From Candidatus Hydrogenedentota bacterium (GTDB lineage: Bacteria > Hydrogenedentota > Hydrogenedentia > Hydrogenedentales > CAITNO01), in the NCBI GenBank assembly GCA_012730105.1, contig JAAYBJ010000202.1, positions 1-41,195 on the forward strand: a stretch of 41,195 nucleotides of DNA, written 5' to 3'. Made by a program: the position numbers and the translations under genes. The notes beneath the pieces are model-generated. The model saw only the letters and a program-made list of their open reading frames with translations, did not search any database and was not told the origin of the DNA. Positions 337 through 32,478 of this stretch are shown in pieces. Position 1 is the stretch's first letter; each line of letters starts with the position of its first letter.

Positions 337-381
337 GAATCGAATAGAAATAAAGGACGCAAAGGACAAAAAAGACACCTT
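337..381 (+). repeat. 9-nt-period GGAC array A
   Basis: Five consecutive 9-nt units begin at 337, 346, 355, 364 and 373. GGAC occupies positions 355-358 and 364-367, with AGAC at 373-376; the rest is purine-rich and degenerate. It lies about 110 bp upstream of the predicted promoter of the XPB-like gene, with GGAC on that gene's coding strand. It belongs to the same family as the arrays at 7179, 15960, 18882, 29594 and 32413. Confidence 0.5.
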
Positions 382-7178: not shown

Positions 7179-7206
7179 CGTTTTGTCCGTTTTGTCCGTT
7201 TTGTGC
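7179..7206 (-). repeat. 9-nt-period GGAC array B, in frame at a gene start
   Basis: On the minus strand GGACAAAAC is repeated with an exact 9-nt period; GTCC on the plus strand lies at 7185-7188 and 7194-7197, with a degenerate third copy at 7203. It directly abuts the preferred start codon of the TPR gene (7177). If translation begins upstream it encodes Lys-Arg-Thr three times. Confidence 0.55.
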
Positions 7207-7479
7207 TTCCGGCCGCATTCATTTTCGGCTTAAGCATAAGGCACGCTCACATACCGGTAACGTACATAAAACCGCCGGGGATAACCCTTTTTAACAAACC
7301 TATGAAACCTTTTTCGTTCAAAAAGCGGTTCACCCCGCTCAACGGGCGCCAAACGTCCCCGGCTTTATGAACCTATATTTCAACCGTGCCTGTCTATTAT
7401 GGCATAAAACGGTCTTCCCGGAAACAAATGTCTTTATACTTCCAACACGGGCATTGCCCAAAACCCAATGTTTTACATC

Positions 7480-15937: not shown

Positions 15938-16052
15938 CACGAACCACGCGAAAAAAGAGTAGTAGGACATGTTGGACCAGTAAGACGGGCAGGACAGATA
16001 TAGGAGGAATATTTCTTCTGTGTCTGTGTTTTCGCCTAGTTTCTCGCGTGGT
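15938..16052. repeat. Composite 9-nt repeat block with inverted flanks
   Basis: Between the convergent Gfo/Idh and hemN genes, ACCACGCGA (15943-15951) and its reverse complement (16044-16052) enclose about 92 bp. The left flank has CACGAA at 15938 and CGCGAA at 15947 (9 nt apart). The middle is the GGAC array C (15960-16005). The right flank read on the minus strand repeats GAA-containing units at 9-nt spacing. The whole looks like one structured element rather than random spacer. Confidence 0.45.
15960..16005 (+). repeat. 9-nt-period GGAC array C
   Basis: GGAC or a close variant starts at 15965, 15974, 15983 (AGAC), 15992 and 16001 (TAGG): five units with an exact 9-nt period and variable 5-nt spacers. 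It is the longest clean example in the window. Confidence 0.65.
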
Positions 16053-18881: not shown

Positions 18882-18917
18882 CAAAAGGACATACGGGACT
18901 TTAAGGACTCAAACGAC
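18882..18917 (+). repeat. 9-nt-period GGAC array D
   Basis: GGAC starts at 18887, 18896 and 18905, with CGAC at 18914, at exactly 9-nt steps. It is 122 bp upstream of the start of the secreted glycosidase gene at 19039, with GGAC on its coding strand. Confidence 0.6.
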
Positions 18918-19038
18918 GAAGAAACACGGCAACCCGCGCCGGCTTCGCGGATAGGCCACCTATACGGCGTGTCCACTGGTAAAAGCGAAGGGCCGGGTAC
19001 GCCATTGCTGTTCCATGCACAACAAGGAGGACCGGTCC

Positions 19039-27963: not shown

Positions 27964-29436
27964 TCAGGTGGGAATCTGGTAATTGGGGGCGTCTTCGATG
28001 ATGGTAACGTCATGGGGATGGCTCTCACGCAGGCCCGCGGCGGTCATGCGGATAAACCGGGTGTCTTTCTTCATGGCCTCCAGATCGCCGCAACCACAAT
28101 AGCCCATGGCGGCACGCAGACCGCCCATCAACTGGTATACATAACCGGAGAGATTGCCCCGGTAGGGAACACGCGCTTCGATGCCCTCCGGCACCATTTT
28201 CGATGCATCGTTTTCGAACTGCATATAGCGGGTTTTACTGCCCTTCTGCATGGCCTTGACGGAACCCATGCCGCGCACCAGTTTATAGGTGCGTCCTTCG
28301 TAGAGCACCTTCTCACCGGGGCTTTCCTCGGTTCCGGCGAACAGGCTGCCAATCATGATAGTGTCCGCGCCGGCCGCGATCGCCTTGGCAATGTCACCCG
28401 AATATTTGATGCCGCCGTCGGCAATGACCGGAACGCCTTCCTGCCTGCAGGCGGCGGCCACGTTCATAATCGCCGTGACCTGGGGCACGCCCACGCCGGC
28501 AATCACGCGGGTCGTACAAATGGCGCCCGGACCGACCCCGACCTTGACCGCGTCGGCGCCGGCCGCAATCAAGTCGCGCGCCGCATCCGCCGTTACCACG
28601 TTGCCGGCAATGACCTGTGACTCCGGGAAGGCCCGCTTCAGTTCGCTCAACGCCTTAAGCACCAGATTGGAGTGACCGTGGGCGGAATCCAGCACCAGCA
28701 CATCGGCCCCGGCCGCAAGCAGCGCTTCCGCCCGCGTCATTTCACCCGGCCCGATGCCCACGGCGGCGCCCACGCGAAGCCGGCCCATGTCGTCCGTGCA
28801 GCGGTTGGGGAAATCCCGGGCCTTCATGATGTCCTTGATGGTGAGCAGGCCCACCAGTTTGTCGTTCTCGTCCACCAGGGGCAGTTTTTCGATGCGGTGC
28901 TTGTGCAGCAATCGCTTGGCGTCGTCGATATCCGTGCCCGGCGACACGGTAATCAGCCTTTCGCGGGGAGTCATGATATCGGAAACCGGCACATCCAGGT
29001 CTTCTTCGAAACGCAGGTCGCGGTTGGTCAGGATACCCAGCAGGTAGCCCCCCTTGTCAGTGATGGGCACGCCTGAAACATGGTAGCGCGACATCAACGC
29101 CTCCGCGTCGCGCAGCTTATGATCCGGGGTCAAGGTAAAGGGATGGGTGATGATACCGGCCTGGGACCGCTTCACCCGGTCCACCTCCTCGGCCTGCTCT
29201 TCCACCGTAAGGTTTTTATGGATAATACCAATACCGCCCTCCTGGGCGATGGCAATGGCAAGGCGCGCCTCGGTGACGGTGTCCATGGCCGCGCTCAGCA
29301 GCGGGATTTTAAGGGAAATGGAGCGGGTCAACCGCGAGGTTAGATCAACATCGCGCGGCACGTATTCAGACCGGGCCGGCACCAGCAGTATATCGTCAAA
29401 AGACAATCCTTCTTCTATAAGATGTTCGGGTTCCAT
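27964..29436 (-). CDS. guaB: IMP dehydrogenase
   Basis: 490 residues, as in most bacteria. Oxidises IMP to XMP with NAD+, the committed step to guanine nucleotides. It starts [17 protein letters not shown], has paired CBS domains at about 95-205 inserted in the TIM barrel, the active-site loop [10 protein letters not shown] with the catalytic Cys307, and the [14 protein letters not shown] phosphate site. The ATG at 29436 is preceded closely by GAGGAG (short spacing, 2-5 bp). It is cotranscribed with guaA. The upstream 325 bp contain a 9-nt array with GGAC on the guaB coding strand. Confidence 0.96.
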
Positions 29437-29761
29437 GGCTCCTCGAAAATGGTTGTAACCCTGAAGTTTCAGGGAAAGGTGATGTGTGCTGAAAAACAGA
29501 GTATACAACACTTTCCGGCCGATCCGCTACTCAGGTTCTTCAAGGGAAACAGAACACGCCTAAATGTACCTGGGTGTGGGAAGGAATCCATCTGATCGGT
29601 CCGGTCCGCCTGATCTTTCCGGTCTGCCCGAAAAAGCATTTTCTCCGGGTTTATTTGACGGGGAATCTTGGGGTATGATGCACAAGCAATAAATCGCAGT
29701 TCTTTCAGCATCACGCAAGCCCGGGCCGGCAGGACCGGCCATAAGTTCAGGAAGCCATGGC
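29437..29761. other. Divergent intergenic region guaB / GT2
   Basis: 325 bp with no gene. It contains the 9-nt array E at 29594-29629, a TATACT word (minus strand, near 29500) that could be part of a guaB promoter without a matched -35, and a TTGACG/TATGAT pair (about 29660-29680) with too short a spacing to call for the GT2 gene. Confidence 0.4.
29594..29629 (-). repeat. 9-nt-period array E (GATC/GGTC variant)
   Basis: Four 9-nt units on the plus strand start GATC (29594), GGTC (29603), GATC (29612) and GGTC (29621); read on the minus strand this gives alternating GACC and GATC at 9-nt steps, with GGAC at two places. It lies about 160 bp upstream of guaB, reading in its direction, and is the most degenerate member of the family. 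Confidence 0.45.
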
Positions 29762-30691
29762 ATGAACACAGACACGCCGAAACTGTCCCTTGTGATCCCG
29801 GTGTTTAATGAAGCCCCCGGCCTGCAGGAACTGCACCAGCGCACCACGGCCGCGCTTGAGGGACTGGCGCAGCCATGGGAGGTGATCGCGGTGGACGACG
29901 GAAGCCAGGACGCATCCCTGGAGATGCTGCGTTCTTTTCGGGAACAGGACAAGCGCTGGCGCGTGGTCCGGCTTTCCCGGAACTTCGGGCAAAGCGCCGC
30001 CCTTTATGCAGGATTTTCCTACGCCCGGGGCGAATACGTGCTGATGATGGACGCCGATCTGCAGGTCTTTCCGGAGGACATTCCGCTGCTGTACGCGAAA
30101 CTGGCCGACGGATGCGACATGGTCAGCGGCTGGCGCGTGAACCGGCGTGACAGCCTGTTCCGCAAGGCCATATCGCTGCTGCTGAACCGTTACACGGAAA
30201 AAGTCACCGGTTTCAAAATTCACGACCACGGTTGTTCTCTGAAGGGCTTCAGCCGCCGGCTCGTAGACAACATGCTGCAATTTTCACACCGGTGCCGGTA
30301 TCTGCCCGTGGACGCCGCCATGCTCGGCGGCAGGGTGGAAGAGGTGGAGGTGCGCCACGCCGAACGGCGGCACGGGGCCAGCAAATACAGCCTGTTCAAG
30401 CTCCTCCGGACCGGTTTTGACATGGTCACTTCGATCACCATCATGCCGCTGCAGTTGATCGGCCTTCTGGGCGGCCTCTGTGCCATAACCGGTTTTGCCA
30501 TGGGACTGCGCGTCCTTTATATACGTCTTCTGTACGGCAATCTGCTGCAACTGGAGTCCGTCATCGCCGCTTTCTTTTTTCTCAGCGGCATGCAGCTCAT
30601 GGTGACAGGCCTCATGTGCGAATATGTCGGCCGTATCTATATCGAAACCCAGCGAAAACCCCTGTTCGTCATCCAGGAGGAACTGGAATAA
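29762..30691 (+). CDS. GT2 glycosyltransferase, GtrB/ArnC/DPM-like, with two C-terminal membrane segments
   Basis: 309 residues. The N-terminal GT-A domain starts LSLVIPVFNEAPGL, with DDGS (45-48) and the metal-binding DAD (97-99 in MMDADLQVFP), then KVTGFKIHDHGCSLKGFSR and the RRHGASKYS block. Two hydrophobic segments (about 225-250 and 260-285) anchor the C-terminus. Such enzymes load a sugar from a nucleotide-sugar onto a polyprenyl phosphate at the inner membrane for later transfer to lipid or glycan. The ATG at 29762 follows GGAAG by 7 bp. It is followed after 62 bp by an acyltransferase gene that probably acts on the same envelope glycan. Confidence 0.82.
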   Translation: MNTDTPKLSLVIPVFNEAPGLQELHQRTTAALEGLAQPWEVIAVDDGSQDASLEMLRSFREQDKRWRVVRLSRNFGQSAALYAGFSYARGEYVLMMDADLQVFPEDIPLLYAKLADGCDMVSGWRVNRRDSLFRKAISLLLNRYTEKVTGFKIHDHGCSLKGFSRRLVDNMLQFSHRCRYLPVDAAMLGGRVEEVEVRHAERRHGASKYSLFKLLRTGFDMVTSITIMPLQLIGLLGGLCAITGFAMGLRVLYIRLLYGNLLQLESVIAAFFFLSGMQLMVTGLMCEYVGRIYIETQRKPLFVIQEELE

Positions 30692-31389: not shown

Positions 31390-32478
31390 TCATTGACCCG
31401 AAGGCTCTACCCGGCAGACGTCAAATTGGGGTGTGGATACCTCCCTGAAATGGTTTGCCTCCGCATCATGGACCAGCAACATCACCGCAAGGTCGTGTTC
31501 CCGTGCAAAGGCCGCGGCCTTTTCCGGGCCGAGCGCCATGAGCGCCGTGGCATACCCATCCGCCCACATGCAGGAGGGATGAATCACGGAAACCGAGGCA
31601 AGGGCGTGCGGCACGGGATAACCGGTGTGGGGATCGATGGTGTGTGAAACAAGACGGCCTTCCAGTTCATACATGTTGCGGTAATCACCGGAGGTTGCTA
31701 GCGCCTCCTGCCCGATACGAACGGCGGTACGCAGATCCCGGACACCCGGTTTGGGTGATTCAATGCCGAGGGTCCAGTCCAGGCCGTGCGCGTTTTTCCC
31801 GGATACCCGGATTTCGCCGCCAACCTCAACCATGTAGTTCCTGATGCCGGCCTCCTCAAAGACCTCCGTCACCGCGTCCACCGCATATCCCTTGGCGATG
31901 GCGGAAAGATCACAGTACAGGTCGGGCCGCGCCTTGGAAATTTTATTTTCAGGATGCAGCGTCAGTTTTTGATAGCCGACCCGTTCGAGGAGGGCGTTAA
32001 TCGCGGCGGCATCCGGGGGGTGCTGAAGCGCCTCGGGACCGAAGCCCCAGGCATTGACAAGGGGGCCCACGGTAACATCAAAAGCCCCGCCGCTTTGTTC
32101 GGCGATCGTCTGGGCCGCCTCAAAAACCTTGTAGGTTTCCCCGCTCAGTTGAAAAGGCGCCGCCCCCTCATACCGGTTGAAACGGCTTAATTCAGAATCC
32201 TCAAGGTAGGTGGACATCAACCGGTTTACCCGGTCCAGCGCGCTGTCAGCCAGACGCTTCGCGTTCGCCTCTGACATGGCCGCGGGCGGTTCCGCGATAC
32301 TGATGGTATAGAAGGTGCCCAGCGCCTCGCCATGCAGAGTAAACGCTTTGGGGGCGGAACCGCAGCCATTTAACAAAAAAATGCAGCAACATGAGAACGT
32401 CGTAGCAAGGAGTGTATAGGTCCTATAGGACGTATAGGACCTATGCTCTTTAAAAGTTGTGCGCGCGGCAGGCATCAC
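31390..32478 (-). CDS. apbE: FAD:protein FMN transferase (lipoprotein)
   Basis: 362 residues. ApbE attaches FMN covalently, from FAD, to Thr or Ser of target proteins including NqrB and NqrC, so its place as last gene of the nqr operon is functional. A lipobox LNGC (Cys39) after a hydrophobic stretch indicates a periplasmic lipoprotein. Family blocks [69 protein letters not shown] and SHTIDPHTG are present. The ATG at 32478 overlaps the nqrF stop (ATGA). Residues 12-22 ([11 protein letters not shown]) are encoded by the 9-nt array F at 32413-32445, placed between start codon and signal core; they are not typical of ApbE. Confidence 0.92.
32413..32445. repeat. 9-nt-period array F, inside the apbE reading frame
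   Basis: TATAGG recurs at 32415, 32424 and 32433, followed by GTC, GAC and GAC: a near-perfect 9-nt repeat of about 3.5 units. It is also a partial palindrome (ATAGGTCC at 32416-32423 with GGACCTAT at 32437-32444). It is translated in frame as a Ser-Tyr-Arg/Thr three-residue repeat of the ApbE leader. Confidence 0.65.

Follow-up and report, generated by a model that had tools for sequence, protein, structure and literature searches.

Nine-nucleotide GGAC arrays in a Hydrogenedentota genome as probable repeats of small cassettes carrying a four-helix-bundle gene

Introduction

The window analysed here, the whole stretch of 41,195 nucleotides forming positions 1 to 41,195 of contig JAAYBJ010000202.1 of a Candidatus Hydrogenedentota bacterium, contains at positions 15,960-16,005 a short array in which the word GGAC recurs in steps of nine nucleotides, together with five comparable arrays elsewhere. 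A sequence-only reading had described the six as one dispersed family and had suggested that they might be sites of a DNA-binding protein, RNA sites of the CsrA/GGA type, or remnants of a slippage-driven mobile repeat. What these arrays are, and what disperses them, is the question addressed here. It is probable, in our judgement, that they serve as cis-acting repeats for small cassettes, probably selfish, whose protein binds the units and drives their spread, with the arrays of the window being relatives of such cassettes.

A cassette consists of a tandem array, a gene for a four-helix-bundle protein of the S23/IVP type, and a further array that is mostly inverted (5′ GGAC ... GTCC 3′). The unit is coupled to the protein: in the TIGR04258 subfamily it is 9 nt long, with a (G)GAC core followed by free positions and then by type-specific positions before the next core, and in a subfamily lacking the TIGR04258 suffix it is 7 nt long, a class in which the cassette inserts in one piece. 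Cassettes sit between genes and within operons in many phyla. In addition, the same kind of 9-nt array occurs in hundreds of dispersed copies, which take the form of inverted pairs, solo arrays, or parts of a miniature inverted-repeat transposable element (MITE), and the six arrays of the window belong to this dispersed set.

Abundance and anatomy of the 9-nt arrays

The dispersed family was found to be real. In the host genome (G000, 5.63 Mb), the pattern GGACN5GGACN5GGAC has 201 matches, against 35 for the reversed pattern, and four-unit matches number 83, against 0 in the reversed control; a genome search allowing one mismatch was discarded as too permissive (475 versus 358). When all 4-mers were examined at periods of 5-30 in 650 kb of the host, GGAC/GTCC was in excess at period 9 only (35 runs, and 0-4 at other periods), and it was also the top word of that period. 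Within the window, a tolerant rule (four GGAC units at 9-nt steps, at least 13 of 16 core matches, at least two units exact) identified 6 arrays on the two strands, with 200 dinucleotide shuffles giving 0.28 ± 0.51 and a maximum of 2; two of these six matches, at about 16642 and 26657 on the minus strand, lie within coding sequence and are probably accidental.

The scan of the genome and its relatives against controls that the sequence-only reading had proposed thus shows an excess in the host, and also in other genomes. Four-unit arrays are present in 51 of the 68 genomes of the phylum, which is presumably Hydrogenedentota because its genomes belong to one order and several Hydrogenedentota are among the named array matches; a scan of named genomes for one array type matched Lentisphaerae, Sumerlaeota/BRC1, Chlamydiae, Chlorobi, Cloacimonadota, and several Hydrogenedentota, as well as Geobacter relatives, Desulfomicrobium, Phycisphaerae, Spartobacteria, and others. 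Chance occurrence within coding sequence may explain some single matches in actinobacteria and proteobacteria.

Array statistics were obtained from 1.19 Mb of the host genome, enriched for contigs with arrays, which holds 77 arrays against 7 in the reversed control. Although 89% of this sequence is coding, 61 of the 77 lie outside open reading frames (ORFs). The number of units has its mode at 4 (44 arrays), with more than five units in 4 arrays. Within an array, GGAC is nearly invariant and the next two bases are poorly conserved (identity 0.27 and 0.48), whereas the last two spacer bases are array-specific, with identities of 0.91 and 0.82 within arrays and 0.36 and 0.38 between them; the unit types of the host include AAAGGAC, ATAGGAC, ATGGGAC, NATGGAC, NGTGGAC, and GTAGGAC. 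In a non-redundant set compiled from many genomes, neighbouring arrays are arranged as inverted pairs (GGAC> ... <GTCC) in 67 cases, with the opposite polarity in 5, and directly in 20, and around genes 43 pairs are inverted inward and 2 are of opposite polarity. A regular hairpin with paired spacers was rejected, free spacer positions of opposite arms being no more complementary than those of shuffled units.

With respect to the neighbouring genes, no strand bias was observed: in co-directional gaps, GGAC is on the sense strand in 14 cases and on the antisense strand in 12, and 16 arrays lie in convergent gaps. The orientation rule surmised from the window, with GGAC on the sense strand, is therefore not borne out by these counts, and a role as CsrA/GGA-type sites in transcribed 5′ leaders is unsupported because the arrays show no preference for the sense strand.

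A four-helix-bundle gene as partner of the arrays

Two array pairs of the host genome bracket a small gene whose protein matches TIGR02436 and PF05635, the latter below the curated cut-off, and carries the suffix domain TIGR04258. In a survey of the flanks of 94 distinct complete TIGR04258 genes, period-9 tandem sequence was found upstream in 63%, in the interdomain linker in 37%, and downstream in 48%, compared with 0-5% at other lags, 0% inside the two domains, and 1-3% in the far flanks. The linker array, which precedes the suffix, lies in frame within the gene. Overall, 9-nt arrays flank 73 of the 94 genes. At suffix-less IVP loci, a signal at lag 9 occurs in 2 of 32 (one of them a run of N) and three-unit GGAC arrays in none, with three-unit arrays present at 14 of 30 TIGR04258 loci, or 15 if a 10-nt one is counted. 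In an independent test, a class-wide search around Oligosphaera in which genes were taken regardless of arrays, 23 of the 28 genes had 9-nt arrays and any other period was seen at most once. The arrays are linked to the genes of TIGR04258 four-helix-bundle proteins. The suggestion of sites for a binding protein had pointed in the right direction, in generic terms that did not name this partner. A Y1 transposase was also considered as partner; its genome counts correlate somewhat with those of the arrays, yet arrays were found at 0 of 21 Y1_Tnp loci. A search of phages with the suffix-type protein gave no match.

The association extends to whole genomes. TIGR04258 was found in 42 of the 68 genomes in the phylum search, in 36 of 43 array-rich and 6 of 25 array-poor genomes (p = 1.5e-6, a value inflated by shared ancestry; Spearman 0.69). 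Among 40 named genomes chosen solely for an ATGGAC array, 22 contain TIGR04258, against 0 of 14 control genomes.

The unit also follows the protein. Unit similarity is 6.74 of 9 positions within the arrays of one gene and 4.89 of 9 between genes, and protein identity predicts unit similarity, with a Mantel rho of 0.36 (permutation maximum 0.11), or 0.37 (permutation maximum 0.13) when pairs from different phyla alone are compared. In the host genome, the genes on C278 (AAA), C271 (CTATA), C7 (TAT), C114 (NGT), and C112 (GATC) have unit types that account for most of the dispersed array types, and the gene on C343 has TTGAC units. Some members carry a topoisomerase-type DNA-binding zinc ribbon (PF01396), and their units are mostly GATC-bearing. 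A strict rule of one gene and one type was tried; it fits genomes G039 and G022 and nearly fits G001, and it fails for G012.

Several variants of the cassette were observed in passing. On G000:C69, a TIGR04258 gene is flanked by GTCGGACNNN arrays with a period of 10 nt and not 9 nt. At the genes on G000:C343 and G003:C33, ATTGAC units replace GGAC, and the latter gene has an inverted-array hairpin on either side. A GATC-type gene with a zinc ribbon is located between HsdR-like and HsdM-like genes, named by eye (G000:C112:11000-14700), and the HsdM-like gene carries in-frame array units that read as SDR/SDP tripeptides. In one Lentisphaeria genome, two gene copies with 86% DNA identity have arrays on both sides that changed together from GGAC to GGGC, as if by homogenisation.

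The same associations could be read as a regulatory network, with the protein acting as an ordinary regulator or a nucleoid-type factor and with the arrays serving as its operators, autoregulatory at its own gene and also present at targets. The mostly intergenic location (61 of 77), the dependence of the unit on the protein, and the conserved core positions would all agree with such a network. It is nevertheless unlikely, given that there is no bias in orientation or toward 5′ leaders, that arrays also occur at the 3′ ends of genes, in convergent gaps, and within coding sequence, that presence is patchy with relatedness across phyla, that one genome may hold several paralogues with different units, and that the array moves with the gene where occupied and empty sites can be compared (see below).

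Predicted structure and proposed mode of action

The AlphaFold model of the protein encoded on G000:C271 (predicted local distance difference test score of 92.7) comprises three helices and a long suffix helix. Its closest solved folds are Xcc0516 (2gsc; probability 1.00, template-modelling score 0.79 by target, E 0.22) and an S23-family protein (2rld). Because of this helix layout and the fold match, the helix that completes the bundle of four probably comes from the suffix, and the internal array would then lie in the loop that precedes it. Eighteen residues are invariant among 64 sequences from several phyla. Xcc0516 is described as a homopentameric torus in PMC4990558, which cites Lin 2006.

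On the cassette reading, the protein, perhaps as a ring-shaped oligomer like Xcc0516, would bind DNA or RNA at the regularly spaced cores, and host enzymes would copy or move array-bounded segments, promoted by the bound protein. Solo arrays would then represent non-autonomous or decayed copies, and the genes adjacent to them bystanders.

Suffix-less genes, 7-nt arrays, and empty sites

Suffix-less S23/IVP genes of the phylum show a signal at lag 7 or 14 upstream in 26 of 32 and downstream in 22 of 32, and on cyanobacterial plasmids heptamers, for example (AGTAGGG)n and (CCCTACT)n, lie on both sides of S23 genes, a few of which have 8-nt units. For the phylum and cyanobacteria combined, a 7-nt array is present at 42 of 47 suffix-less S23 genes; among the 27 with arrays on both sides, 24 pairs are inverted and 3 direct, and the units are G-rich upstream and C-rich downstream of the gene. 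Some of these cassettes lie within operons of clustered regularly interspaced short palindromic repeats (CRISPR) systems on cyanobacterial plasmids (cas6|cas4 and cas10|cmr3).

Near-identical cyanobacterial plasmids lacking the gene provided empty sites in four cases:

cas10|cmr3: Picosynechococcus 7002 versus 7003
cas6|cas4: Dolichospermum versus Anabaena 90, the empty site differing beyond the cassette
nrdB|nrdA: Calothrix versus Nostoc
an operon on a Nostoc plasmid

At all four empty sites, array, gene, and inverted array are absent as one block and no array is left. The 7-nt cassette of array, gene, and inverted array thus inserts as a single unit. This comparison bears on the converse proposal, that the arrays came first and served the four-helix-bundle gene as landing sites. 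Solo arrays far more numerous than genes, and arrays on both sides of the gene, would be expected of landing sites; with none at the four cyanobacterial empty sites and with arrays inside the gene as well, this order of events appears quite improbable.

Mobility and decay of the 9-nt arrays

Between two cassettes from different bacterial families, homology spans 744 bp from one array to the other at 80% identity and stops there, the flanks being unrelated. Transfer between phyla is likely because a Hydrogenedentota protein has 81% identity over 211 residues to one from Thiosymbion, although contamination of a genome bin could produce the same sequence match.

Among orthologous loci of sister genomes, arrays stay in position and gain or lose whole units. 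Such differences between close relatives, and the long runs seen in some genomes, are what replication slippage producing functionally empty microsatellites would leave. Slippage alone is the least probable of the accounts considered: a single period and core stand out, the unit number peaks at 4, free spacers have diverged and the core has not, linkage to one gene family is tight, and the tracking of protein clade by period and unit is hard to square with it. Of the slippage-driven mobile repeat proposed earlier, the mobility can be retained, whereas slippage is not the main story, the first spacer positions being variable and the 7-nt cassette inserting whole.

One AAAGGAC subfamily lies inside a MITE of ~175 bp with CCTAAAAACGGC terminal inverted repeats and 5-bp target duplications (for example TTGAA, TTTAA, and ATAAC). 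Its ends are CCTAAAAACGGCAGTT...AACTGCCGTTTTTAGG, with the array pair within; a copy at L072:6391-6562 and at least 7 others were found in the host genome. Its origin may be IS1380-like, which is a guess. This subfamily is the evidence for a hitchhiking account, in which ordinary transposases alone spread the dispersed arrays by way of MITEs, unrelated to the four-helix-bundle protein. However, common flanks are found in some array families only, cassette homology stops at the arrays, and diverged MITE copies keep the array positions while their flanks drift: mismatch is 8.6-8.8% at core and type positions, 21% in the flanks, 31% in free spacers, and 36% in the centre, a comparison in which BLAST seeding somewhat favours preserved cores. 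We therefore consider hitchhiking alone very improbable.

In the cassette reading, association and insertion are observed, and binding and mechanism are what we infer. Several points weigh against this reading. Pairs of filled and empty sites are known for the 7-nt class only, and gene cassettes show no fixed target duplication. No catalytic motif was recognised in the TIGR04258 protein, and host enzymes must be invoked for that reason. When the single best array on each side is taken, direct and inverted arrangements of the 9-nt arrays flanking a gene are about equally frequent. No TIGR04258 match was found in seven genomes with at least five four-unit matches, several of them being incomplete; contigs break at arrays. 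G012 has one gene of GTC type, yet its arrays are mostly NAT/NGT. Finally, the window's own arrays are weak when taken one by one.

Comparison with known systems

REPIN-RAYT systems consist of doublets of repetitive extragenic palindromic (REP) sequences and REP-associated tyrosine transposases (RAYTs) (PMC3116915). The arrays resemble them in comprising hundreds of short extragenic inverted repeat pairs that outnumber the genes, with inverted doublets able to form hairpins (67 inward, 5 outward, 20 direct), and in having a dedicated protein gene flanked by its own repeat type, which tracks the protein. They differ in that the protein is a four-helix bundle and not a Y1/HUH transposase, and in that the repeats are tandem arrays of 7- or 9-nt units, whereas REPs are palindromic. 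They do not belong to this system because there is no Y1 transposase partner.

Intervening sequences (IVSs) of 23S rRNA carry an S23/IVP ORF (PMC4990558). The cassettes described here resemble them as small, probably selfish elements with inverted ends that encode the same protein family and fold (here TIGR02436, with PF05635 below its cut-off, and folds 2gsc/2rld). They are distinguished by lying in intergenic DNA or within operons, by ending in tandem arrays, and by the solo arrays dispersed alongside them, and TIGR04258 by its extra suffix and 9-nt units. They cannot be counted as IVSs, which are excised from 23S rRNA by RNase III, because they are not in 23S rRNA; those examined lie between protein genes, for example hsdR/hsdM, cas6/cas4, and nrdB/nrdA.

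The short tandemly repeated repetitive (STRR) sequences of cyanobacteria are intergenic heptameric repeats. The 7-nt arrays are similar, and heptamers bracket S23 genes on Nostoc-type plasmids; the family of the window has 9-nt units, and the 7-nt arrays go with suffix-less S23 genes. MITEs are approached by the one AAAGGAC subfamily with terminal inverted repeats and 5-bp target duplications; gene cassettes, by contrast, end at the arrays themselves, and for the remaining array types, which were not surveyed systematically, no such terminal repeats were noticed in common. Avd of diversity-generating retroelements belongs to a related four-helix-bundle family for which nucleic-acid binding has been reported; neither a reverse transcriptase nor a template repeat was noticed beside the cassettes, no search having been aimed at either.

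No earlier account of a link between such arrays and four-helix-bundle genes was found in the open-licence literature on Hydrogenedentes repeats, the four-helix-bundle suffix, TIGR04258, or nonanucleotide repeats. The link joins two puzzles, the role of the abundant S23/IVP proteins and the reason why some bacterial genomes contain short tandem arrays between genes, in hundreds of copies and with a fixed period. Two predictions follow from it: a specificity code from protein to repeat, with unit and period following the protein, and a small mobile cassette without a known recombinase, which would represent a new type of mobile DNA. In-frame tripeptide repeats (SDR, TPS, NGL) of some proteins would also be accounted for, as array sequence translated in frame. 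More tentatively, S23/IVP proteins may define a widespread, unrecognised class of mobile DNA. Each subfamily would read an array of fixed period (7 nt without the suffix and 9 nt with it), employ that array for the ends of its cassette, and homogenise and spread it without a known transposase, recombinase, or reverse transcriptase; many unexplained short tandem repeats of bacterial genomes, cyanobacterial heptamers among them, and the 23S rRNA IVSs could then be products of this class.

Arrays of the window

The six arrays of the window are as follows:

337-381, plus strand: array A, a solo array with 9-nt units of the AAAGGAC type (GGACGCAAAGGACAAAAAAGAC), located upstream of a gene for a Helicase_C_3 protein
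7179-7206, minus strand: array B, with CGGACAAAA repeated almost perfectly, located at the 5′ end of an ORF for a tetratricopeptide repeat (TPR) protein
15960-16005, plus strand: array C, a degenerate GGAC array with 3 of 4 cores exact and mixed GTAGGAC/TTGGAC units
18882-18917, plus strand: array D, AAAGGAC-like, with 3 exact cores and CGAC, preceding an ORF at 19015
29594-29629, minus strand: array E, a GATC-containing variant with an 18-nt (2 x 9) repeat
32413-32445, no strand assigned: array F, palindromic (TATAGGACC/TATAGGTCC), located where an NqrF-like gene adjoins an ApbE gene

The best lag-9 self-match over 27 nt is 0.78 for B, 0.70 for F, 0.67 for A, 0.63 for C and D, and 0.56 for E, compared with 0.15-0.41 at other lags. 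Arrays A-D are GGAC arrays, and both E and F fail the strict GGAC rule. The arrays had been thought too short and degenerate for tandem-repeat callers, yet Tandem Repeats Finder at a low threshold detects B, E, and F.

Three arrays can be compared with gene-bracketing types of the host: the unit type of A is that bracketing the TIGR04258 gene on G000:C278, GATC units as in E bracket the gene on G000:C112, and CTATAGGAC units related to F bracket the gene on G000:C271. Array C, the locus from which the question arose, is located in the gap between a GFO/IDH/MocA oxidoreductase gene and a HemN-like radical-SAM gene, which converge on it, and not upstream of a gene. C and D are singly weak, and the case for them rests on the genome-wide data. 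The best reading of the six is as solo or decayed relatives of gene cassettes, in part degenerate relics, and the interest lies in the cassette family beyond the window.

Array E occupies a gap between the divergent ORFs 27964-29511 (minus strand) and 29762-30691 (plus strand, a glycosyltransferase), and F falls inside the ApbE ORF if that ORF is called from an upstream GTG. Array B, translated in frame, gives a TKR repeat at the N-terminus of the TPR-protein ORF (7179-7237), the true start of which may be the ATG directly after the array.
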